From: an uncultured Thermogutta sp.
GTDB taxonomy: Bacteria; Planctomycetota; Planctomycetia; Pirellulales; Thermoguttaceae
Assembly: GCA_937128505.1 (NCBI GenBank)
Contig: CAKZMM010000071.1
Coordinates: 1 to 33,020, forward strand
Length of the DNA stretch: 33,020 bases
Reading direction: 5' to 3'
Shown: in pieces, positions 10,821 through 31,543 of the stretch
How positions within the stretch are numbered: the first letter of the stretch is position 1
How the letters are laid out: each line of letters opens with the position of its first letter
Position numbers and translations under genes: made by a program
The notes under the pieces: generated by a model
What the model was told of the DNA's origin: nothing
Databases searched by the model: none
What the model saw: the letters and a program-made list of their open reading frames with translations, nothing else

Positions 10821-11945
10821 TTAGGGAGTGGGCACTGATTCGCCACCGCTAATGCTCCCCAATGCACCCCATACGCCGTAGGGACTCGTGGTGAATGTCG
10901 TACCACCACCCCAGCAAGCAGCCGAGAGGTTCCCGGAGTCGATCGTTTCGGAAATGAACCGCACAGAGCCATCGGCCATAGCGGCATTCACTCCGCCGGG
11001 ATGGAAGCTGTCGGGAGGCATGATCTGCTCCCAACCCCATTCGCCAGCACTGTTCGTGCAGGAAATCGAATTCGGCGGCAGGACGGTCCAAAAGCCGTGA
11101 ACCGTGGGACCACCACCACTCCACCACTGACCCCGGCGCGTTTCCCAACCCGCATTGTTAGAAGCAATCCGTTGGCCGCGCTTATAAGCCAAGCAGGCGG
11201 CCGGATTATCGCCGAATCCCGAGATTACCGCATAATCGCCGTGAATATTCCCATGTAGAGCTTCCTGCCCGATTACATGTTCACTCACGGCCACGGTATT
11301 ACTGGTTCCGTCACGGATTTCGGAAATGGTCACATTGTAGAAGCGCCTGCCGAAAACACCCCGAGGCGGGCCACCACCCCAAACGTCTTTGCACCGGTCG
11401 CCCATACTCCCCGAGTAATTCACCCTTCCCGTGTCATTCCACCAACCTGCGGATTTGCGCACCGCATCGGACGGGCAGCGGAGCGTCGCTAGCTCGACAT
11501 GCCATGGCGGATAACCGTTTCCACTGCCTAAATCCGCCTCGATCCACGGGGCGGGTCCAAACGGCGGATAAACCATCGAACCGGCGGCCCCCGTCTGATG
11601 ATTACGTCCTTGAGTGCGCCCGATCACCTGCTGATACAAACCCTGCTGCTCCATGAAAGGCGACAGCGGGACGAAGAAACTCAGTTGACCCATGTTCGAA
11701 GTATACGGATCGCCGTTGTCCGTTCCCCCCCATCCGGCGGGAAATGCCTTATAAACGTCGTGATAGTTGTGCGCCGCCAACATGATTTGCTTGAGATTGT
11801 TGACGCACTGAGTGCGACGTGCGGCCTCACGAGCAGCTTGAACGGCCGGCAAAAGTAGGGCGATCAAAATACCAATGATCGCGATGACAACGAGCAATTC
11901 CACGAGCGTAAACGCTCGACGAACAAGCAATCTACGGACACCCAT
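10821..11945 (-). CDS. DUF1559 protein with type IV pilin-like N-terminus
   Basis: The 374-residue product begins with a class III (prepilin) signal: [10 protein letters not shown], with Glu at position 5 of the mature form (residue 16), then a long hydrophobic helix ([15 protein letters not shown]). Prepilin peptidase would cut between Ala11 and Phe12; Ala at -1 is a variant of the usual Gly. The body is a DUF1559 domain ending in the H-X9-DG motif ([17 protein letters not shown]) and the common [13 protein letters not shown] tail. This family is greatly expanded in planctomycetes; members are membrane-anchored or pseudopilin-like and of unproven function. The ATG at 11945 is preceded by AGGGGG about 6 nt away. 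The next minus-strand gene upstream encodes a regulatory-like lipoprotein, a frequent neighbour of DUF1559 genes in this phylum, so the two probably belong to one unit despite a 395-bp gap. Confidence 0.92.
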
Positions 11946-12340
11946 AGTTCACCCCCTTCAAAAAGGCTTTCAACCTAGACAACGCTACAACGAACCGATC
12001 TCACGCCGAATTCAACCCGCCGGTTTTCCAATCGATTAATCACAAAAACCGATAACTATCAAATGAAACTTACCTTTTGGACAAGAAAGGTCGATACGTC
12101 CGTTCAAGCCAAACGGGGAATGCGTTCAACTACTCCACAAGAGTTTACGGAAAAAGCTACCGGCCCTTCTCGGCAGTTTCACGGAACGGTCTCTTTAAAC
12201 ACCTCGTAACAGCCGTTCCGCCAATCGGCTATCTCCCCCGAACACACCACGGACAAGTCAACGTGGCTCATACGAGGCGGATAAGCTCGCGATTAATCAA
12301 TTAGAACCATTCGCCCTCATCCACCTTAAGCGCGGAATTA
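11946..12340. other. Spacer between the lipoprotein and DUF1559 genes
   Basis: About 395 bases between two minus-strand genes. No coding gene or strong hairpin was seen. It holds the leader of the DUF1559 gene and possibly its own promoter. Confidence 0.4.
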
Positions 12341-12844
12341 TTACTTACTTGATAGAGCAAATGTAAAATCGTTGGTTTTGCCTGATTCTACCGTGGCCTC
12401 CAAACCCGAAGTATTAAAGTCTTTATACTTGGGAGGGAGTAGATCCTCGACTTGAGTAGGTCGGGATAAGGCGGCCGCCATCCCACCACCACTCTCCATC
12501 TGTTCCTTAATTCTTGCCATGGCCTCTTCTTGAGAAGTCGCGCCCGTGGCGGCCGGCCCACCCCGAGTCTTGGCGATGCTGACCTTGTACCGGCCCGGAA
12601 CGGCACCTTGACCTCCGCCGGCCGTCGTCAAGGTAAACCTGCCGGAAGCGTCGGTGATCCCAGCCGCACTTCGCCCGCCCTCATCCGTCGGGACGAACGT
12701 CACGGTGGCTCCGTCCACAGCTTGACCATCCAACGTAACCACTCCGGTGACATCCACCGTTCTCGGCCCGGCCGGCCCACCGCAGCTTACAGCCACCACA
12801 GGCAGAAAGACTAAGGCCAAAAGTGAAATCCAGATACGCGTCAT
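12341..12844 (-). CDS. Lipoprotein with carboxypeptidase-regulatory-like (beta-sandwich) domain
   Basis: The 167-residue product starts at ATG 12844, chosen because GGAGG (complement of 12853-12857) lies 8 nt upstream; the open frame runs 22 codons further without such a site. The signal peptide (residues 4-18) ends in AVSC with Cys21, a lipobox-like site. Residues about 28-95 form a transthyretin-like beta-sandwich of the carboxypeptidase regulatory type (VTGVVTLDGQAVDGATVTF, then GRFTLTTAGGGQGAVPGRYKV). The C-terminal part has a charged segment and the phrase LLPPKYKDFNTSGLEATV, which I know from many planctomycete lipoproteins encoded beside DUF1559 genes. It is predicted to be attached to a periplasmic membrane face. 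The function is unproven, probably structural or adhesive. Confidence 0.88.
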   Translation of the reverse strand: MTRIWISLLALVFLPVVAVSCGGPAGPRTVDVTGVVTLDGQAVDGATVTFVPTDEGGRSAAGITDASGRFTLTTAGGGQGAVPGRYKVSIAKTRGGPAATGATSQEEAMARIKEQMESGGGMAAALSRPTQVEDLLPPKYKDFNTSGLEATVESGKTNDFTFALSSK

Positions 12845-12979
12845 CTTGCTTACCTCCGTTTGATTTAGTTTTTGTGCCGTGGCCCTACCGTTCTCCCCGA
12901 CGGCCTGCACAATCCCTCAATCGACGACCGCAGCCCAGAATAAGCGGCTGCAAGGCGACACCTTTCAATTGTTGAATCG

Positions 12980-13507
12980 TGTGAGAGGTCGGTAGCACCG
13001 CTCCTTAAGGCCTCTTGCCGCCTGAAAAAGCTGTTCCTTAAAGAGGTTCAGAAATCTTTAGCCCGAGGTGCTCTTAACGTTACAAAAGAAAAAGAAGCGG
13101 ACAGGTCGCCCGAGACTCCGAGAAAAAAGCCTATAAGTGCATCCTTTACAGGTCGTACCCCCACTTGGCTATTACCCGAGCAAATCTCCGGCCTTTTTTG
13201 TAGCAAACACTCCTGTCTTTTGCAAGTGGGGGCAGTAAAATCCTGTGAGAGGTCGGTAGCACCGCTCCTTAAGGCCTCTTGCCGCCTGAAAAAGCTGTTC
13301 CTTAAAGAGGTTCAGAAATCTTTAGCCCGAGGTGCTCTTAACGTTACAAAAGAAAAAGAAGCGGACAGGTCGCCCGAGACTCAAAGAAAAATCTAAAAGT
13401 ACACCCTTTATAGGTCGTGCCCCCCACTTGGTTATTACCCCACCAAATCTCACACTTTCCTTGTAGCAAACATTCCTGTCTTTTGCAAGTGGGCGGCAGT
13501 AAAATCC
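12980..13507. repeat. 264-bp element in two tandem copies
   Basis: Unit 1 is 12980-13243 and unit 2 is 13244-13507, both exactly 264 bp. The first 139 bases are identical (12980-13118 and 13244-13382). The remaining 125 diverge to roughly 80% identity by eye, yet end in the same sequence (GCAGTAAAATCC). The second half of each unit contains an inverted repeat: CCCCCACTTG (13158-13167) with CAAGTGGGGG (13223-13232) in unit 1, and the corresponding arms 13419-13430 and 13486-13497 in unit 2 with a single C:C mismatch. In the identical half, AGCACC can pair with GGTGCT and CCTCTT with AAGAGG. The element lies between divergent genes. It could be a tandem small RNA, a duplicated regulatory region, or a degenerate mobile element. 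No coding capacity is evident. Confidence 0.85.
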
Positions 13508-13633
13508 TGTGGAAAATTCGAGACGGGGGCGCAAGGCATAAGGCTCAGCACTGGAGAAGTGCCATATCGTGGGGTTGCCAAACGGAGGGATCAAACGAAA
13601 ACTCCCTGCAAAACAGCTAAACAGGGCACCGAA

Positions 13634-15517
13634 GTGGTTTCCAAACATTGGGTACAGTGGGCCGGGACCTTACTTTGTCTTGCGACCTTTGCCGGCATCA
13701 TCGTTTTTTTCTTTGCGGGCCGCCGGCCTGAGGATGTGCCGGCCGCTCTGCCCGCGGCCAATTTGCCGGGGCAGGAGGGATCTGGTTCCTTCGGGAAACC
13801 AACGGTTCCGTTTGGAGAACGTCGAGATGGGGTATGGCCAAGCCCAAGAGACGGTCGAAAACCCGAGGAAAACTGTGAACTTCCCCAATTCAAGGACATA
13901 ACGCGTTTTTCTGGGATTTCCTTCTGCCATACCGATGGCAGCTCCGGGAGTAAGTACATTGTGGAAACGGTCGCCTCGGGCCTTGCCACCTTCGATTACG
14001 ATGGGGACGGGCAAATCGATATCTACTTCTTAAACGGATGTCCACTTGGAGCCGAAAGCACCGGCGAAAGCCCCAGCAATCTATTTTACCGCAACTTGGG
14101 GCAACTCCGATTCTCAGATATCACTCCCCAGTCAGCCGTCGGTGATACCGGGTACGGACTTGGTGTCGCGGTGGGGGACTACAACAACGACGGATTCGCG
14201 GACTTGTATTTAAGCAATTTCGGCCCAAATGTGCTGTATCGGAACAACGGTGATGGGACCTTCACCGAGGTGACCGCAATGAGCGGCGTGCAAGCGGCCG
14301 ATCCGCACAAAGTGGGGGCAGGTGCAAGTTTCTTGGATATGGACGCCGACGGAGATTTGGATCTTTTCGTGGCAAATTACCTGGTTTTCTCGTACGAACG
14401 GCACGTGGTCAGTCAATGGCGGGGCATGACGATTTACGCGGGCCCCGAACGGTTCCTCCCGCTTCCCTCGATCGTATTCCGCAATGAGGGTGATGGGAGC
14501 TTCGTTGACATTAGCCATCAGTCAGGTGTCGCCCAGTACCCAGGCAAAGGAATGGGGATGGTCTGCGGGGACTACGATGACGATGGGGATACGGACGTCT
14601 TTGTGAACAACGACGGACCACCGGGTAACTTCTTGTTTCGAAACAATTCACAAGGATTCTTCGAAGAGGTGGCAGCCCTGAGCGGAACGGCATTCGCAGG
14701 AAGCGGTTTGATCAATGGAGCCATGGGAGTGGATTGCGGAGACTTTGATAACGATGGTCGCTTTGACTTCTACGTGACTTCTTATCAAGGTCAATTTGCC
14801 ACCCTTTACCGAAACTTGGATGGACGGCTTTTTGAGGATGTTACCTTGGCCACCGGAGCGGGTGAGGGTTCGTTCAATCAGGTGACTTGGGGTTGCGGCA
14901 TCGTAGATCTAGACAACGATGGGTTCCGGGACCTTTTTTTCGGTTGTGGGCATCTGATCGATAACATCGATCTTCTCGACGGCAGCACGTCGTATCGGGC
15001 ACGGCCGGTGTTTCTACGAAACATCAATGGGCGCCGATTTCAAAATGCCTCCGCCGCATGCGGCTTAGGGGCGCTAGAGCCATCTGTGGCCCGGGGCGTC
15101 GCCTTCGATGATCTGGATGACGACGGAGATTGGGACATCGTGATTCTCAATTCCAGACTTCCGGCGATGTTGCTGCGCAATGATTCGCCCAAGGAACGGC
15201 GGTGGCTACAGATTCAATTGCTGGGAACGCGCAGCAATCGGGACGGGGTCGGTGCTCGTGTACGGGTCGTCGCTGGTAATTGCGTCTGGGTGGACGAGGT
15301 GCGCAGTGGCCGCGGTTATCAGAGCCATTTCGGAAGTCGGTTGCATTTCGGCTTGGGGGAGCAATCACAAGTGGACCGGATCGAAGTAAGCTGGCTCGGT
15401 GGGGGACGCGATGTGATCGAGCGAATCCCTGCCAATCAAATATTGCTGGTTATTGAAGGCCGCGGCTGGTATGCGGCCTGGTCCGATTCAGCTCGCGTTG
15501 GAGGGACGCAGCCATGA
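13634..15517 (+). CDS. CRTAC1-family protein: VCBS/FG-GAP repeats with ASPIC/UnbV domain
   Basis: The product is about 627 residues from a GTG at 13634 (weak AGGG at 13623-13626); a GTG at 13559 would add 25 polar residues and has a GGAG too close to it. A single membrane helix (about 9-27) anchors it, with the body outside. Seven Ca-binding-like DxDxDG motifs lie between residues about 120 and 500 (for example DYDGDGQID, DMDADGDLD, DLDNDGFRD), typical of VCBS/FG-GAP propeller blades. The C-terminal ASPIC/UnbV domain (about 520-610) shows RSGRGYQSHFG and LHFGLG. Such proteins are abundant in planctomycetes and are assumed to bind partners in the envelope; no enzymatic role is established. Its stop overlaps the start of the following TPR gene (ATGA), so translation is coupled. 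A close paralogue is encoded at 17697-19490 on the other strand. Confidence 0.9.
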   Translation: MVSKHWVQWAGTLLCLATFAGIIVFFFAGRRPEDVPAALPAANLPGQEGSGSFGKPTVPFGERRDGVWPSPRDGRKPEENCELPQFKDITRFSGISFCHTDGSSGSKYIVETVASGLATFDYDGDGQIDIYFLNGCPLGAESTGESPSNLFYRNLGQLRFSDITPQSAVGDTGYGLGVAVGDYNNDGFADLYLSNFGPNVLYRNNGDGTFTEVTAMSGVQAADPHKVGAGASFLDMDADGDLDLFVANYLVFSYERHVVSQWRGMTIYAGPERFLPLPSIVFRNEGDGSFVDISHQSGVAQYPGKGMGMVCGDYDDDGDTDVFVNNDGPPGNFLFRNNSQGFFEEVAALSGTAFAGSGLINGAMGVDCGDFDNDGRFDFYVTSYQGQFATLYRNLDGRLFEDVTLATGAGEGSFNQVTWGCGIVDLDNDGFRDLFFGCGHLIDNIDLLDGSTSYRARPVFLRNINGRRFQNASAACGLGALEPSVARGVAFDDLDDDGDWDIVILNSRLPAMLLRNDSPKERRWLQIQLLGTRSNRDGVGARVRVVAGNCVWVDEVRSGRGYQSHFGSRLHFGLGEQSQVDRIEVSWLGGGRDVIERIPANQILLVIEGRGWYAAWSDSARVGGTQP

Positions 15518-17091
15518 GCCGCGAATCCAGATCATGGTGGGATAGGTCGGGCTTGGTTGCCGCTGGTCTGCTTGCTGTTGGGTTGGGGTATGGACTAGGT
15601 GTTTTTTTGGAGCGCGGTTGGAATCGCCCTGCACCGGTGGAAATGCTTGGTCTGAATTCCGGCGGGGCAGATGAAAACCAAAGGGTTGCAGAAGTGGCTC
15701 CCTTAGGCGACATCCTCCCGAAAGCTGTGCCGGGCTTTGGTGAACCACAAATTGCCCGAGATTCGAATGTGAAAACCGAGGCATTAAAGGCCGAGGTAGC
15801 CCGGGTTGTCGAGCATTTGTTGGCTTGTTTTCCCGAAAACTGTGATGCGTTGGAAATCAAAGCTCGAATGCATGATTGGCTTGGCGAGACGGAGAAGGCG
15901 GCGGAGACGTGGCGGCAATGTCTCCAGAAGAATCGCCACTATGTGTATGCACAGGTCGGATTAGCCAATTTGGCGGCCAGCCGCGGCGATTTTCAGAATG
16001 CGGAATCGATTGCTCGGGAAGCTTTGGCCTCCGATCCAGCAAATTTTCAGGCCCGGGCTATTCTGGCCCAGGCATTGCTCAATCAGGGCCGACCGCAAGA
16101 GGTCGTCGTAGTGCTTGAAGCCGCTCTTCAACAGGATCCGCGCTCCCTTGGGTACTACCTTTTAGGGCAGGCTTTTTTCCAACTGGGTGACTACGAAAAG
16201 GCGAGGGATAGTTATCGCAAAGCAACCCAGCTTTGGCCTGATTACGCCGAGGCGTATCACGGCTTAGCCCAGAGCTGCTTTCGACTTAACTTGGATTCGG
16301 AAGCCGCCGCGGCCATGGAAAAATTTCGTAGTTTTGGCAAACCGGAGCAATATTCGCAGCGGTTGCGCGCCGGGACGAAAAGCGACGAAGAACTGATGCG
16401 CGAAGGAGCAGCGGCCCTTTACGCCGAAGCCGGGCGGATCTATCTGCTGGCCGAGCGGCATCGCGATGCCGAAGTGCTTTGGAATCGTGCCCTTCAGCTC
16501 GATCCGAGTAATCGCTCAGCCTTGCAGTCGATGGCTTTCGTGCGGCGAAAGGAAGGACGATGGCGAGAGACGAAATTCTACTTATCTCATCTGGCCCAAT
16601 TGGAGCCGCAAAACCCGAGTTATAGTTTGGAAATCGGACGCCTTTGGGAGGGATTAGCGCATTGGGGCGAGGCCGAGAAGGCTTTTCGCCATGCGTTAAC
16701 TATCGCGCCCAAGAATGCGGATTGCTACGCCGCTTTGGCTGAGTTCCTGCTTGCCCACGGGGGTGACCAGAAGGAAATTGTGGAGCTGGCCCAAGAGGCG
16801 GTACGGTTGCGTCCAATAGCGAAACACCATGCTCTGCTTGCCGCGGCCTGGATAAACGCGAACGATTACCCGTCCGCCAAGGTCAGCCTGGAAAAAGCCG
16901 TGGAGCTTGCACCGGAAAGCATCCTTTACCGGCAACATTATAACGAGGTCCTGGCGAAACTACGTGAAATGCAGGATCCTGCCGCGGAAAAACAACAGGA
17001 ATCAAGTGGTTTGGCCAAAGCTTCAGGGCAAGGCCCTGTTCCCTCCGGCGGTGAATCAGCTCCGTCAAATTCCTCATCAGAAAAGCGTTGA
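15514..17091 (+). CDS. Membrane-anchored TPR protein, translationally coupled to the CRTAC1-like gene
   Basis: The 525-residue product starts at ATG 15514 inside the preceding stop codon (ATGA overlap), which fixes the start and implies a two-gene operon. Residues 12-31 form a single membrane helix. The rest is predicted to be extracytoplasmic. From about residue 90 to 490 it consists of TPR-type helical repeats, for example LGYYLLGQAFFQLGDYEKA and YAEAYHGLAQSCFRLN, with a second block from about 300. The C-terminal 30 residues are polar and Ser/Gly-rich. TPR arrays are protein-binding scaffolds. Given the coupling, the natural inferred partner is the VCBS/ASPIC protein. A shorter TPR protein with the same anchor layout lies at 19931-21007, next to the paralogous ASPIC gene. 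Confidence 0.88.
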   Translation: MSRESRSWWDRSGLVAAGLLAVGLGYGLGVFLERGWNRPAPVEMLGLNSGGADENQRVAEVAPLGDILPKAVPGFGEPQIARDSNVKTEALKAEVARVVEHLLACFPENCDALEIKARMHDWLGETEKAAETWRQCLQKNRHYVYAQVGLANLAASRGDFQNAESIAREALASDPANFQARAILAQALLNQGRPQEVVVVLEAALQQDPRSLGYYLLGQAFFQLGDYEKARDSYRKATQLWPDYAEAYHGLAQSCFRLNLDSEAAAAMEKFRSFGKPEQYSQRLRAGTKSDEELMREGAAALYAEAGRIYLLAERHRDAEVLWNRALQLDPSNRSALQSMAFVRRKEGRWRETKFYLSHLAQLEPQNPSYSLEIGRLWEGLAHWGEAEKAFRHALTIAPKNADCYAALAEFLLAHGGDQKEIVELAQEAVRLRPIAKHHALLAAAWINANDYPSAKVSLEKAVELAPESILYRQHYNEVLAKLREMQDPAAEKQQESSGLAKASGQGPVPSGGESAPSNSSSEKR

Positions 17092-17187
17092 GGTCCTCGA
17101 TTGGGTACGCATCCCTCGCACGGTGCTCAGCAACCGAAAATTTGGTCTGTGGAATCCGGTCTCCGAATTGATCCGGCCTCCGACATA

Positions 17188-17285
17188 AGCCGGCGTATGA
17201 AATGAGCCGGTGGATGAAATGACCCGATGTGTGAAATAATCCGGTATATGACCCGATGTGTGAAATAATCCGGTATATGAAATGA
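17188..17285. repeat. Short tandem repeat after the TPR gene
   Basis: A 29-bp unit beginning GACCCGATGTGTGAAATAAT is present twice without gap or mismatch (17221-17249 and 17250-17278). It is preceded by related, degenerate pieces of the form CCGG(N)TATGAAATGA from about 17188. It lies in the 605-bp convergent spacer 17092-17696, which has no gene I can support. Confidence 0.8.
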
Positions 17286-17696
17286 AACGAAGGGAGCTTC
17301 CAATACCCGGGTGCGGCTAAAACGGGGGTGCGCATTTTAGGGGTAAGAGGTAAAACACGGCGCTAAGGTATCCGTTCGATTTGTTGAAATCCTGGAAAAG
17401 CTGCCGGCTTGCGGCTACGGCATCCCATGCCAAAAATGTACCCACAGAAGGCCCGATCCCATCGGCATGGAGAAAGCTCACCATGGGTGCGGTATCCATC
17501 TAGGACCTATTGGCTAAAATGATTATAGGACCTATTGACTTAACTGATCAAAAGAAACGAAAGGGTACCGTTCAAAAATCCCGGCGGTGTGGAGCGCTCG
17601 CTCTCACCGCCGGCAGTTACCGTCTGACGCTGTTACCCGATAGAGCTTGCCGCAGGAAAGGCACGACGGCTCATCGGCGAGTCGGTGGCTCCCATC
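17286..17696. other. Rest of the convergent spacer between the two ASPIC/TPR modules
   Basis: About 410 bases without a supported gene. A 12-base direct repeat (TAGGACCTATTG) occurs near 17502 and again near 17526. A 60-codon minus-strand open frame at 17317-17499 has no recognisable domain or ribosome binding site and was not called. Confidence 0.4.
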
Positions 17697-19490
17697 TCAC
17701 GGCTTTACCCACTCGAGGGGGAGTGGTTTTTCCCAACCCTCGATAACGAGGATCCGCCCGTTCGTCGGCAGATCGGTTAAAGCTGTGACCGCGCCGCCAA
17801 GCCACCGGATTTCGAGCCGGTCGACTTTATTTTCCTTTCCTAGGCCGAAATACAGCCGCATTCCCCAGTGGCTTTGGTAGCCTCGCCCGCTGTGCACCTC
17901 GTCAATTAGCCGGAAATTGCCCCCAACAAGGGTCACTTGGCTTCCCACGGCATCGCGATTTGCCCGGGTTCCAATAAGCCGCAACTGAAGCCAAGAACCC
18001 GCACGTGGGGAATCGTTGCGCAATAAGGTGGGATGCTCTTGGGCATTGAGGATGGCCACGTCAATATCGCCATCGTTATCTAAATCATCGAGTCCGATGC
18101 CGCGGCTTGCGGCGCGCATGGACATGCCCGGTCCCGCCACCGCCGAGACGTTTTCGAATTTACCCATTCCTTTATTACGCAGAACAACGTTGGGAGCCCG
18201 ATAGGCAGTAGTTGGATCAATCTGATCAATGAATTCCTCCAAGTGGCCGTTGGCGACGAAAAGATCGCGGAAACCATCCAGATCGAAATCTGCGAAGCCA
18301 CATCCCCAATTCACGTGCTGGAGGCAGCCATTACCCGCCCCCGCAGGGACGGTAATGTCTTCGAAAAGCCCGCCCCCCAAGTTTCGATACAATACGGGGT
18401 GTTCCCCCTGATAACTGGTCATGTAAAAATCAAAGTGTCCATCGTTGTCATAATCCGCTGCATCCACCCCCATGCTGCCGTTGGCCTTGCCGAGATGGTC
18501 ATAAGCGGTGCCGCATTCCAGACCGCACTCCGCGAACCGGCCGAAGCCATCGTTAATCCAGAGAAAATTCGGCCGAACGTCATTGCAGACAAAAATGTCC
18601 GTATCGCCGTCACCATCGCAATCGCTCGCTACCATTCCCATTCCTGTGCCGGCATGCTCTGCGATTCCCGCCCAGGCACTAATATCGGTGAAGGTGCCAT
18701 CCCCCTCGTTACGGAACAAGGTGTCGGGAACCGGCTTGAAATCCAGCGGGGAAGGTGCGCGGGCAAATCCGCCAATAACCCGGCGAGGATTGGCATCATA
18801 TGCGAATTCGACGTAGTTCGCGGAGTAGAGGTCCAGATCGCCATCGGCGTCGATATCCAAGAAACATGCCCCCGCACCAACTTTGAACCCGTCTGCTACA
18901 CCGGCTTGTTGAGTGACATCCGCGAATGTTCCGTCGCCGTTGTTGCGGTACAGAACATTGGGACCGAAATTGTTCAAGTAGAGATCAGAAAAGCCATCGT
19001 TGTCATAGTCCCCCGCGGTTACGCCGAGGCCATAGCCGGTATCGGCCACGCCCGCTACTGCCGCTGCATCCCAGAACCTAAACCCGCCCAAATTCCGGTA
19101 GAAACCATTGCAAGGAAGCGGTCCTGAAAAGCTGCCGAGGGGAAGCGGTACCCCGTTCAAAAAGTAAAGGTCATCCCAATCATCCCCGTCGTAATCAAAC
19201 ACCGCAAGGCCCGCACTCATCGCCTCGACGATATACTGCTCCCCAAAACCCCCGTGCGTATGCCGAAAGGTGATTCCCGACTGGGGAGTGACATCCACGA
19301 ACTGAATGGAAACTTTATCCGGCTTGGGTCCCAGTAAACTGGGAAGCGGCCGGGGGTTAACACTATCCCGAAACCAGAAAGCAATTCCCCCGCCCAAACC
19401 GGTCAGAACCACAAAGCCGAAAACGGCTAAAAGTAACCGATAGCTTTTCCGAGCCCGGCGGACAGGATTCAGCTTGCTCCTTTCAAACAT
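17697..19490 (-). CDS. CRTAC1-family protein: VCBS/FG-GAP repeats with ASPIC/UnbV domain (paralogue)
   Basis: The 597-residue product has a basic start, one membrane helix (about 19-40) and seven DxDxDG-type motifs from about residue 95 to 475 (GDYDNDGFSD, DIDADGDLD, ADYDNDGHFD, DFDLDGFRD, DLDNDGDID). The first motif is degenerate (DYDGDDWDD). The ASPIC/UnbV domain near 510-590 contains HSGRGYQSHWG and LYFGLG. It is clearly a paralogue of the protein at 13634-15517: long shared stretches include DTGYGLGV and NFGPNVLYRNNGDGTF. The ATG at 19490 has a G-rich stretch (AGGGGGG) about 12 nt upstream, further than usual. On this strand the TPR gene is upstream and separated by 440 bp, so the pair is not overlapped as it is on the plus strand. 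An extracytoplasmic binding role is inferred. Confidence 0.9.
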   Translation of the reverse strand: MFERSKLNPVRRARKSYRLLLAVFGFVVLTGLGGGIAFWFRDSVNPRPLPSLLGPKPDKVSIQFVDVTPQSGITFRHTHGGFGEQYIVEAMSAGLAVFDYDGDDWDDLYFLNGVPLPLGSFSGPLPCNGFYRNLGGFRFWDAAAVAGVADTGYGLGVTAGDYDNDGFSDLYLNNFGPNVLYRNNGDGTFADVTQQAGVADGFKVGAGACFLDIDADGDLDLYSANYVEFAYDANPRRVIGGFARAPSPLDFKPVPDTLFRNEGDGTFTDISAWAGIAEHAGTGMGMVASDCDGDGDTDIFVCNDVRPNFLWINDGFGRFAECGLECGTAYDHLGKANGSMGVDAADYDNDGHFDFYMTSYQGEHPVLYRNLGGGLFEDITVPAGAGNGCLQHVNWGCGFADFDLDGFRDLFVANGHLEEFIDQIDPTTAYRAPNVVLRNKGMGKFENVSAVAGPGMSMRAASRGIGLDDLDNDGDIDVAILNAQEHPTLLRNDSPRAGSWLQLRLIGTRANRDAVGSQVTLVGGNFRLIDEVHSGRGYQSHWGMRLYFGLGKENKVDRLEIRWLGGAVTALTDLPTNGRILVIEGWEKPLPLEWVKP

Positions 19491-23197: not shown

Positions 23198-23601
23198 AGG
23201 TTCGCCGAATAAGGATACGGCCCCGAGGGGCAGAACGAATCTTCTGTGCAGGCCGCGGACGAGATATCGATTAGCTGATTCGATAGTTACGATCAGATCG
23301 TTCGATAATTGTTCGATAATTGACGGGACAAATGGCAGCATCCTTTGCTCCCGTAATTCCATCCCGCGATGAGAACACGCCATCTAAAAGGCTGCCGGCA
23401 GCCGTACGCTATGCAATCAAAAGGTGCCCCTTCTTTTCGTCGCTGGATCCCGCAAGCTCAGAGGTGTCAACAACTCCAAGGAAGGAGTACACCGTTAGGC
23501 TTTTTCCTAGCATTTCAAGTGTGCCATTCCGAGCGGGGTGCCATTCCTCGCGGGACCAGTATCAGCGCATGCTAGTATTAACCGAGCTCATCGTTCTCGG
23601 C

Positions 23602-23696
23602 AAAGCTAAGTCGTTCTTAATAAAGCCAAATCGTTCTTGATAAAGCGGAATGGTTGTTGATAGAGCCGAATCGTTCTTAATGAAGCCAAATCGTCG
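23602..23696. repeat. 20-bp tandem repeat, four units plus a partial fifth
   Basis: Units of 20 bp with consensus AAAGCCAAATCGTTCTTRAT begin at 23602, 23622, 23642 and 23662; a partial unit runs 23682-23696. Units differ by one to five bases. A smaller repeat of 11 bp (GTTCGATAATT, twice) lies at 23300-23321. The surrounding spacer 23198-23896 has no gene I can support; short minus-strand frames through the repeat merely translate the repeat. Confidence 0.85.
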
Positions 23697-29653: not shown

Positions 29654-31543
29654 GTGGCGAACTTGAAGCAAGCTCGGTTTTTTATTTTGATGCTTGCGTT
29701 CATTTTGGTGTGCCCAATGAATTTATGTGCTCAGCCGGCGGAGAAAATCTTCCCGCGCGATACCCGGTTCTTAATCACAGTGACAAACTTTCGTCAGTTG
29801 GAAACGGCGTGGAAAAGGACGGAACTGGGCAAATTGTTGGCCGATCCGGTCATGCAGCCGTTCCGGGAGCACTTGCAGCAGCAAATCGACTCCAAACGTT
29901 GGGGACTGAAGACTCGGCTTGGGATAACGTTTGAAGAGGTGCGATCGATCCCGACCGGCGAGGTTTCCGTCGGCATTATCGAGCTGGGTGAGGAGCAGTT
30001 TGCCTTAGTTTTTGTAGCCGATGTTCGAGGCAAAGTCCGCGATGCCGAAGCTTTGGTGGCCAAGGCTGCGGAAAGGCTCCAAGTGGACGGGGCGAAACGG
30101 GCGAAAATCCAAATTGCTAGTGTAACGGCTGACGAATTCACTTTTCCCGTGACGGATACTCCCCGCCCGCGTCGGCCTGCCATCTGTTGCCTCCATCAAG
30201 GGCTGGTGATTCTTGCCGATGATAGGCGCGCTGCGGAATTGGTGCTGGCGAATTTGGCCGAGCCCAAAGCTACTCTGGGGGAAGTCGAATCTTACCAAGC
30301 GATCGTTGCTCGTTTGCAAGCCGATGCTGGGGCTGAGACGCCGCATGTCCGCTGGTACTTAGAACCCTTGGATTACCTTGAAGCCTTGCGGTCTTGGAGA
30401 TCTCAGGAAGCTGCACCTCGCGCGGATCCGGTAGCAAGGCTCCGTGCTGCTGGGTTTGACTCCATTCGCGCGATCGGGGGATGGATCAATGTGGGTGGGG
30501 ACATGCACCAGATTTTCCATCGGACCATGGTCTACGCCCCGGGACCTTTGCAAAAATCGGCCAAGATGCTCAGTTTCGAACGATGGAGCGATTTCGTCCC
30601 AGAGCCATGGATCCCCCGAGATGTCGCCAGCTACACCAAGATTTCGGTTAACTTGGTGGAGGCATTTGACAATATTGGGCCGTTGTTCGATCAATTTGTC
30701 GGCGAGGGTGAAGAAGGGGTATGGGCGGATGTGTTGGACAGTCTAAAAAACGACGAAGACGGTCCACAAATCGACCTACGTGAGGAGTTGGTTAAGCATC
30801 TCGGAAGCCGGATCAGCGTTACCCGGGATTATGAAGAGCCCATCGGCGCGAAAAGTGAAAGATTGCTCTTCGCCATTGAAGCCCGGAATCCTCAGCAGGT
30901 GGCGGCGGCTTTGCGAAAGACCTTGGAGAACGATAAGGAGATTCAACGGCGGCAGTTCGGCGAGTTGGTTATCTGGGAAACAATACCGCCCAAAGAGCCG
31001 CCGGTGCGATCGGTCAGGTTGGAGCTACCGAAATTACCGGGCCGGCCTGTGGATGATGCGGGGGAGGAAGAGACGGAAGAATACTCTCCGCTTCTCCCCA
31101 ACGCCGCCATGACCGTGGCCCACGGGCATCTTTTGATAGCCTCGCACTACGATTTCTTGGTGAAACTACTTCGGCCCGGGGAGAGCCGTCAGTCGCTATC
31201 AAAGAGTATTGATTGGCTGGGGGTCAATGCTGCATTAACTCAGGGGGGTGCGAAGGACGATTTTGTGCGAGTGTTCTACCGGGCTGACGAGGCGTATCGA
31301 CCGACCTACGAGTTGCTGCGACAAGGGAAGTTGCCGGAAAGTGAGTCGTTGCTCGCGCGGTTTCTGAATACGCTCCTCGCGGAGGAAACTCAAGAAGGGG
31401 TGCGGAAGCAACGGATCGACGGCAGCAAACTGCCCGAATTCGAATTCGTGCGACGGCACCTCGGACCGGTCGGAATGTTCGGCCAAGTGGAAACCCAAGG
31501 TTGGTTCTTTAAAGGCTTTATGCTTCCTCCAGCACGGCGGTAA
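29654..31543 (+). CDS. Large secreted protein of unknown function, planctomycete type
   Basis: The 629-residue product has a signal peptide (hydrophobic about 9-22, cleavage at LCA/Q, residues 26-27) and no further membrane helix, so it is probably periplasmic or secreted. The mature start, FPRDTRFLITVTNFRQLETAW followed by TELGKLLADPVMQPF, is a phrase I associate with a family of long planctomycete proteins of unknown function, related in style to DUF3352; this link is from memory, not a search. The body alternates alpha and beta segments, and an acidic stretch (EEETEE) lies near residue 475. No catalytic motif was seen. The GTG start at 29654 is supported by GGAG (29643-29646) 7 nt upstream. 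It stands alone. Confidence 0.75.
   Translation: MANLKQARFFILMLAFILVCPMNLCAQPAEKIFPRDTRFLITVTNFRQLETAWKRTELGKLLADPVMQPFREHLQQQIDSKRWGLKTRLGITFEEVRSIPTGEVSVGIIELGEEQFALVFVADVRGKVRDAEALVAKAAERLQVDGAKRAKIQIASVTADEFTFPVTDTPRPRRPAICCLHQGLVILADDRRAAELVLANLAEPKATLGEVESYQAIVARLQADAGAETPHVRWYLEPLDYLEALRSWRSQEAAPRADPVARLRAAGFDSIRAIGGWINVGGDMHQIFHRTMVYAPGPLQKSAKMLSFERWSDFVPEPWIPRDVASYTKISVNLVEAFDNIGPLFDQFVGEGEEGVWADVLDSLKNDEDGPQIDLREELVKHLGSRISVTRDYEEPIGAKSERLLFAIEARNPQQVAAALRKTLENDKEIQRRQFGELVIWETIPPKEPPVRSVRLELPKLPGRPVDDAGEEETEEYSPLLPNAAMTVAHGHLLIASHYDFLVKLLRPGESRQSLSKSIDWLGVNAALTQGGAKDDFVRVFYRADEAYRPTYELLRQGKLPESESLLARFLNTLLAEETQEGVRKQRIDGSKLPEFEFVRRHLGPVGMFGQVETQGWFFKGFMLPPARR

Follow-up and report, generated by a model that had tools for sequence, protein, structure and literature searches.

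The window analysed here, a stretch of 33,020 bases, is the entire source contig (C71) in an assembly of 198 contigs and 5.58 Mb. Its gene families, together with the named loci that match it best, point to a planctomycete as the source bacterium. Two tandem units of 264 bp each abut head-to-tail in it, at 12980-13243 and 13244-13507, and a repeat array was detected there as 12975-13511. To their left, on the minus strand, lie a DUF1559 (PF07596) gene with an N-terminal methylation motif (10821-11945) and a lipoprotein-like gene (12341-12844), whose carboxypeptidase-regulatory-like match falls below the Pfam cut-off and whose likely ATG, at 12844, has a GGAGG 8 nt upstream. On the plus strand, downstream of the repeat, the gene for an ASPIC/UnbV FG-GAP protein (13559-15517) is overlapped at its end by the gene for a TPR protein (15514-17091), and the two presumably form one operon. 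The start codon of the ASPIC gene is uncertain: the first listed start is a GTG at 13559, another GTG, at 13634, directly precedes the membrane segment, and six bases beyond a good GGAGG (13584-13588) comes an in-frame ACG (13595-13597). If the lipoprotein ATG and the ASPIC GTG are the right starts, the repeat sits in a divergent spacer of 714 bp (12845-13558). The coordinates thus bear out an earlier note on this DNA, which had described two adjoining units of equal length between a lipoprotein gene and the ASPIC/TPR operon.

The arrangement of these genes differs from that in relatives. Lipoprotein, DUF1559, ASPIC and TPR genes are colinear in that order in three genomes, one of the same genus as the source (G002) and two of the same family that share a single genus (G026 and G074), whereas in the window the lipoprotein-DUF1559 pair (10821-12910) points away from the ASPIC-TPR operon. 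This colinear order was seen in 3 of the 31 compared loci; elsewhere the four genes are not all together in the stretch examined. A trypsin-like gene precedes the four genes in G026, as it does in the window. By parsimony, the turned-round pair would be the derived state here, produced most simply by an inversion. Replacement by a paralogous pair is also possible because both families are large (the lipoprotein has 13 matches in its own genome, and the DUF1559 family likewise has many members) and because the window proteins share only 40-49% identity with their counterparts. Other arrangements of these genes occur within the same genome, at loci L032 and L033. Inverted repeats that might connect one edge of the turned-round pair with the other were sought, with no convincing result (best E 0.30). 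The tandem repeat lies at the right edge of that pair, and any causal link between rearrangement and duplication would be conjecture.

ASPIC proteins are themselves numerous. The window holds two ASPIC matches (13559-15517 and 17697-19490), each near a TPR gene, and the ASPIC protein beside the repeat has 12 matches in its own genome at E 0.001. In a genomic contig collection, 23 loci with relatives of this protein were listed in a pattern-limited search, the best at 57% identity, and none of them belongs to a closer relative.

The two units do not resemble each other evenly along their length. In their alignment, columns 1-139 are identical at 139 of 139 positions (12980-13118 in unit 1, 13244-13382 in unit 2), just as the earlier note had reported. 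The remaining 125 nt of each unit (13119-13243 and 13383-13507) occupy columns 140-266, of which 105 of 127 are alike; the similarity that had been put at about 80% by eye is therefore 83%. The 22 differing columns comprise 11 transitions, 7 transversions and 4 gap columns, the last made up of one 2-nt and two 1-nt indels. When 22 differences were placed at random over the 266 columns, an identical run of at least 139 was reached in 1 of 200,000 placements, and once adjoining differences had been pooled as 16 events the count rose to 16 of 200,000. A scan for dense blocks across the unit was matched by none of 5000 permutations. Because random placement almost never gives such a run, the contrast between the halves is real, and within one pair of copies an identical tract gives way abruptly to diverged sequence, as is characteristic of a gene-converted duplicate.

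Within the diverged half, the final 47 columns (220-266) hold 2 differences, compared to 20 in the 80 columns from 140 to 219 (post hoc Fisher P = 0.003). This calmer tail fails correction for the scan, being equalled in 771 of 5000 permutations and, with merged events, in 4697 of 5000. For that reason the simple two-part split of the unit stands.

The edges of the array carry a short near-repeat. It reads AATCGTGTG at 12975-12983 and AATCCTGTG at 13239-13247 and 13503-13511, so that the consensus AATC[G/C]TGTG opens the array (12975), recurs in its middle (13239) and closes it (13503). These 9 nt probably mark the duplication junction. The homology with the left flank is modest, 8 of 9 nt, and fits illegitimate recombination or slippage.

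No copy of the repeat beyond the two units was found, either in the host genome or in its relatives, where the earlier note had suggested looking. In its own genome, unit 1 has two matches at E 0.001, both at this locus, and the additional genomic copies expected of a dispersed repeat or MITE are absent there. BLAST against 59 other genomes, two congeners among them, returned no copy and no trace of the 139-nt half. Infernal covariance models built from each half and run, with stricter filters, against 60 genomes including the source recovered only the two units. BLAST against phage and plasmid collections likewise gave no copy, and an exact 25-mer search of the genomic contig collection gave none. 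Within the order, 395 other genomes were searched at the DNA level without a convincing second case. In that set (396 genomes with the source included, taken from a larger group; in the matches listed, each genome had two candidates scored), the sole non-self match among those listed is a 32-nt stretch at 88% identity in one genome, G079, with E 4.5e-4. We dismiss it as chance, since its E is about 0.2 over 396 genomes and it falls inside a 332-aa reading frame. Among the publications listed in literature searches, none had a title or abstract opening that bears on the locus.

Other short repeats occur in the window. Where the TPR gene and the second ASPIC gene converge, the spacer holds tandem repeats at 17185-17283 with periods of 17 bp and 29 bp (the 29-bp copies being 100% identical), and a further 25-bp repeat pair lies at 17501-17548. 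An array of about 4.7 copies of the 20-bp unit AAAGCCAAATCGTTCTTAAT, with 79% matches, spans 23590-23694.

The diverged half contains an inverted repeat, which the earlier note had singled out as kept in both units. Indeed, its 8-bp arms are intact in each: CCCACTTG at 13160-13167 and CAAGTGGG at 13223-13230 in unit 1 (13160-13230 overall), and the same arms at 13423-13430 and 13486-13493 in unit 2 (13423-13493), with 55 nt between them in either case. In unit 1 the arms lengthen to a perfect 10 bp, and 25 of 2000 mononucleotide shuffles of that unit likewise produced a perfect inverted repeat this long. When the arm pair was sought with a gap of 42-68 nt, it occurred in its own genome at these two places only, each of them matched on either strand, since the pattern equals its reverse complement. 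The probability that the 16 arm columns were spared by chance is 0.053 if 20 differing columns are counted and 0.038 if 22 are. The kept stem is thus only marginally surprising, since chance spares the arms about 4-5% of the time.

To describe the fold of the diverged half, we applied RNAalifold to the two right halves, which yielded a consensus of 27 pairs. The covarying pairs that the earlier note had proposed looking for did not appear: 0 of the 27 are changed on both sides in the two sequences available. One-sided changes affect 4 of the 27, each giving a G-U pair in unit 2, in line with null means of 3.6-4.4. Four nulls in which the 20 substitutions were randomly re-dealt, each with 300 draws, attained the plus-strand consensus energy 0, 5, 6 and 4 times and the minus-strand one 29, 21, 16 and 18 times. 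The plus-strand result agrees with the 4-5% chance of the arms being missed. How many pairs are kept carries no information, as the nulls attain that number in 195, 149, 217 and 164 of 300 draws. Because the feature was picked partly for its kept stem, all of these stem and fold figures are overstated, and the consensus fold was derived from the same two sequences on which it is tested. We read these results as a weak hint of a plus-strand hairpin kept in both units.

Broader measures of folding are ordinary. Whole-unit folding energies, compared with shuffled sequence, gave z = +0.38, +0.58, -0.72 and +0.80 for the two units on both strands. Sliding-window z-scores averaged -0.09 to +0.31, the lowest window, at 13261-13305 on the minus strand, scoring -2.99. 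At the gathering threshold, Rfam had no match in the whole window, and at E up to 5 the region 12900-13600 gave only two sub-threshold lncRNA matches, at 13.9 and 13.2 bits against a required 55.

A coding origin for the units was also considered and rejected. The unit length of 264 is divisible by 3, but the indels between the copies shift the frame, and three ORFs that overlap the units (from 18 of at least 20 aa listed for 12900-13600) have no Pfam match. The identical half of each unit carries two terminator-like sites on the minus strand; the total of four is close to the mean of 3.0 (sd 1.8) given by shuffles. Among them is a terminator-like stem with a T-rich tail, present in each unit on the minus strand, at 13098-13112 and 13362-13376.

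Given these results, we conclude that the locus is probably an ordinary non-coding tandem segmental duplication, the left part of which was re-homogenised by recombination between the copies. A plain segmental duplication is favoured because no other copies were found and no covariation was seen between the two sequences, two of the three outcomes that the earlier note itself had listed as jointly pointing this way. In the sequence of events that we propose, a stretch of about 264 bp would have been doubled at the near-repeat AATC[G/C]TGTG, as the junctions suggest, and the two copies would then have drifted apart. Recombination between them, presumably gene conversion or unequal sister exchange, would have made the left 139 bp uniform again. 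In the right 125 bp the differences would have persisted, either because that part was already too diverged or because it lay outside the tract. Any influence of the doubled spacer on its neighbouring genes may be incidental. The surrounding spacer appears to have been rearranged in this lineage, most simply by inverting the lipoprotein-DUF1559 pair; the order is observed, and the event is our reading of it.

Gene conversion, one of the two explanations that the earlier note had offered for the uneven identity, is the best fit because little else yields 139 identical bases beside 83% identity in one copy pair; we infer it from two copies in one assembly. The other explanation was selection on the first half. 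That selection would hold 139 of 139 bases while the next 125 drift to 83% is unlikely, because the 59 relatives, two of them congeners, have no trace of that half by BLAST or covariance model. This absence is a good but not final argument, given how far removed the congeners are: in G002 the ASPIC counterpart is 62% identical. Other observations, too, count against the preferred reading of a converted duplication. The differences in the right half avoid the hairpin to a degree seen in few random placements, a pattern not predicted for a purely neutral right half. The array is also unusual for its genome, being the only one with a period of at least 100 among 108 arrays in 317,208 bases of its own genome (25 stretches, the window included, two of which overlap by 2 kb), and 104 of the 108 have a period under 40.

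The position of the repeat invites a regulatory reading, in which the units would be two copies of a cis-acting control region, a promoter or 5' leader serving either the lipoprotein gene or the ASPIC-TPR operon, the first half holding strictly selected sites and the second drifting. In favour of it, and of the corresponding suggestion in the earlier note, the repeat occupies a divergent spacer between two gene starts, and the altered gene order would have altered the promoter context. Against it, a scan of 12300-14000 that scores the sigma-70 promoter type alone found 0 sites, compared with a shuffle mean of 0.8. Such a region would also need selection on all 139 bases, and the congeners lack any trace of it. 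We consider a duplicated control region unlikely. A more elaborate version casts the spacer as a copy-number-variable divergent control element, its 139-nt direct repeats kept identical so that homologous recombination can add or remove units, which would shift the number of plus-strand hairpins, and hence expression, between the flanking gene sets as a form of phase variation; we regard this as highly improbable. The earlier proposal of a tandem structured RNA, on the plus strand with its hairpin kept in the second half, draws on the 10-bp perfect inverted repeat, on arms spared in both copies and on a plus-strand consensus energy that beats nearly all null placements. Against it count the ordinary z-scores, the lack of an Rfam family and of relatives, the one-sided changes at null expectation and a fold built from its own test sequences, and its chances are very slim.

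Two further readings concern the origin of the identical block rather than its function. The array could be in part an assembly artefact, if the assembler had stitched together variants from two strains or a collapsed repeat. The window is one whole contig among 198, short-read assembly graphs cope badly with exact repeats of such size, and 139 nt is slightly below the largest k of some assemblers. However, the unit junction shares just a 9-nt near-repeat with the left flank, and 9 nt is too short for false graph joining at usual k. The repeat sequence should therefore stem from real reads, which makes an artefact very unlikely and a chimeric assembly unlikely. Alternatively, a small mobile element of 139 nt may have been inserted twice into an older tandem repeat, as an identical block adjoining diverged sequence might suggest. 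Its own genome holds only the two copies, by eye the block ends carry no terminal inverted repeats, and the phage and plasmid collections have no match, all of which leave this origin extremely improbable. Because there is no other copy in the genome, we see neither a mobile family nor an ectopic donor, and we reject both a mobile element and such a donor.

The converted duplication that we favour carries a caution, in that a sharply two-speed tandem repeat can mimic structural selection where recombination between copies explains the pattern. If the number of units varied between cells, the locus would offer a simple model for repeat-driven regulation in a little-studied phylum.

The template and variable repeats of diversity-generating retroelements form a pair of roughly this size that is partly identical and partly variable. 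The differences at this locus are not limited to the A positions of one copy, which led us to reject such an element. Of the window ORFs, 19 distinct ones were scanned with Pfam (17 of the 97 listed of at least 80 aa, plus two shorter ones), and none of these has a reverse transcriptase domain. In the same window, a 629-aa reading frame at 29654-31543 has no Pfam match at E 0.01. The closer parallel is with the intergenic tandem duplications of prokaryotes, the long-unit repeats and satellites, which like this locus consist of head-to-tail copies with no family elsewhere. Unlike them, the locus has two copies only, and its divergence is limited to one part of the unit. In bacteria, gene conversion is documented to leave mosaic identity between repeats, an example being the PE/PPE genes (PMC12046097). 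Compared to the conversion described there, the locus is non-coding, its copies are adjacent and short, and conversion is read from the copies alone (PMC12046097). What it appears to share with the PE/PPE genes is the mosaic itself, with putatively converted, identical stretches set beside unconverted, diverged ones (PMC12046097).
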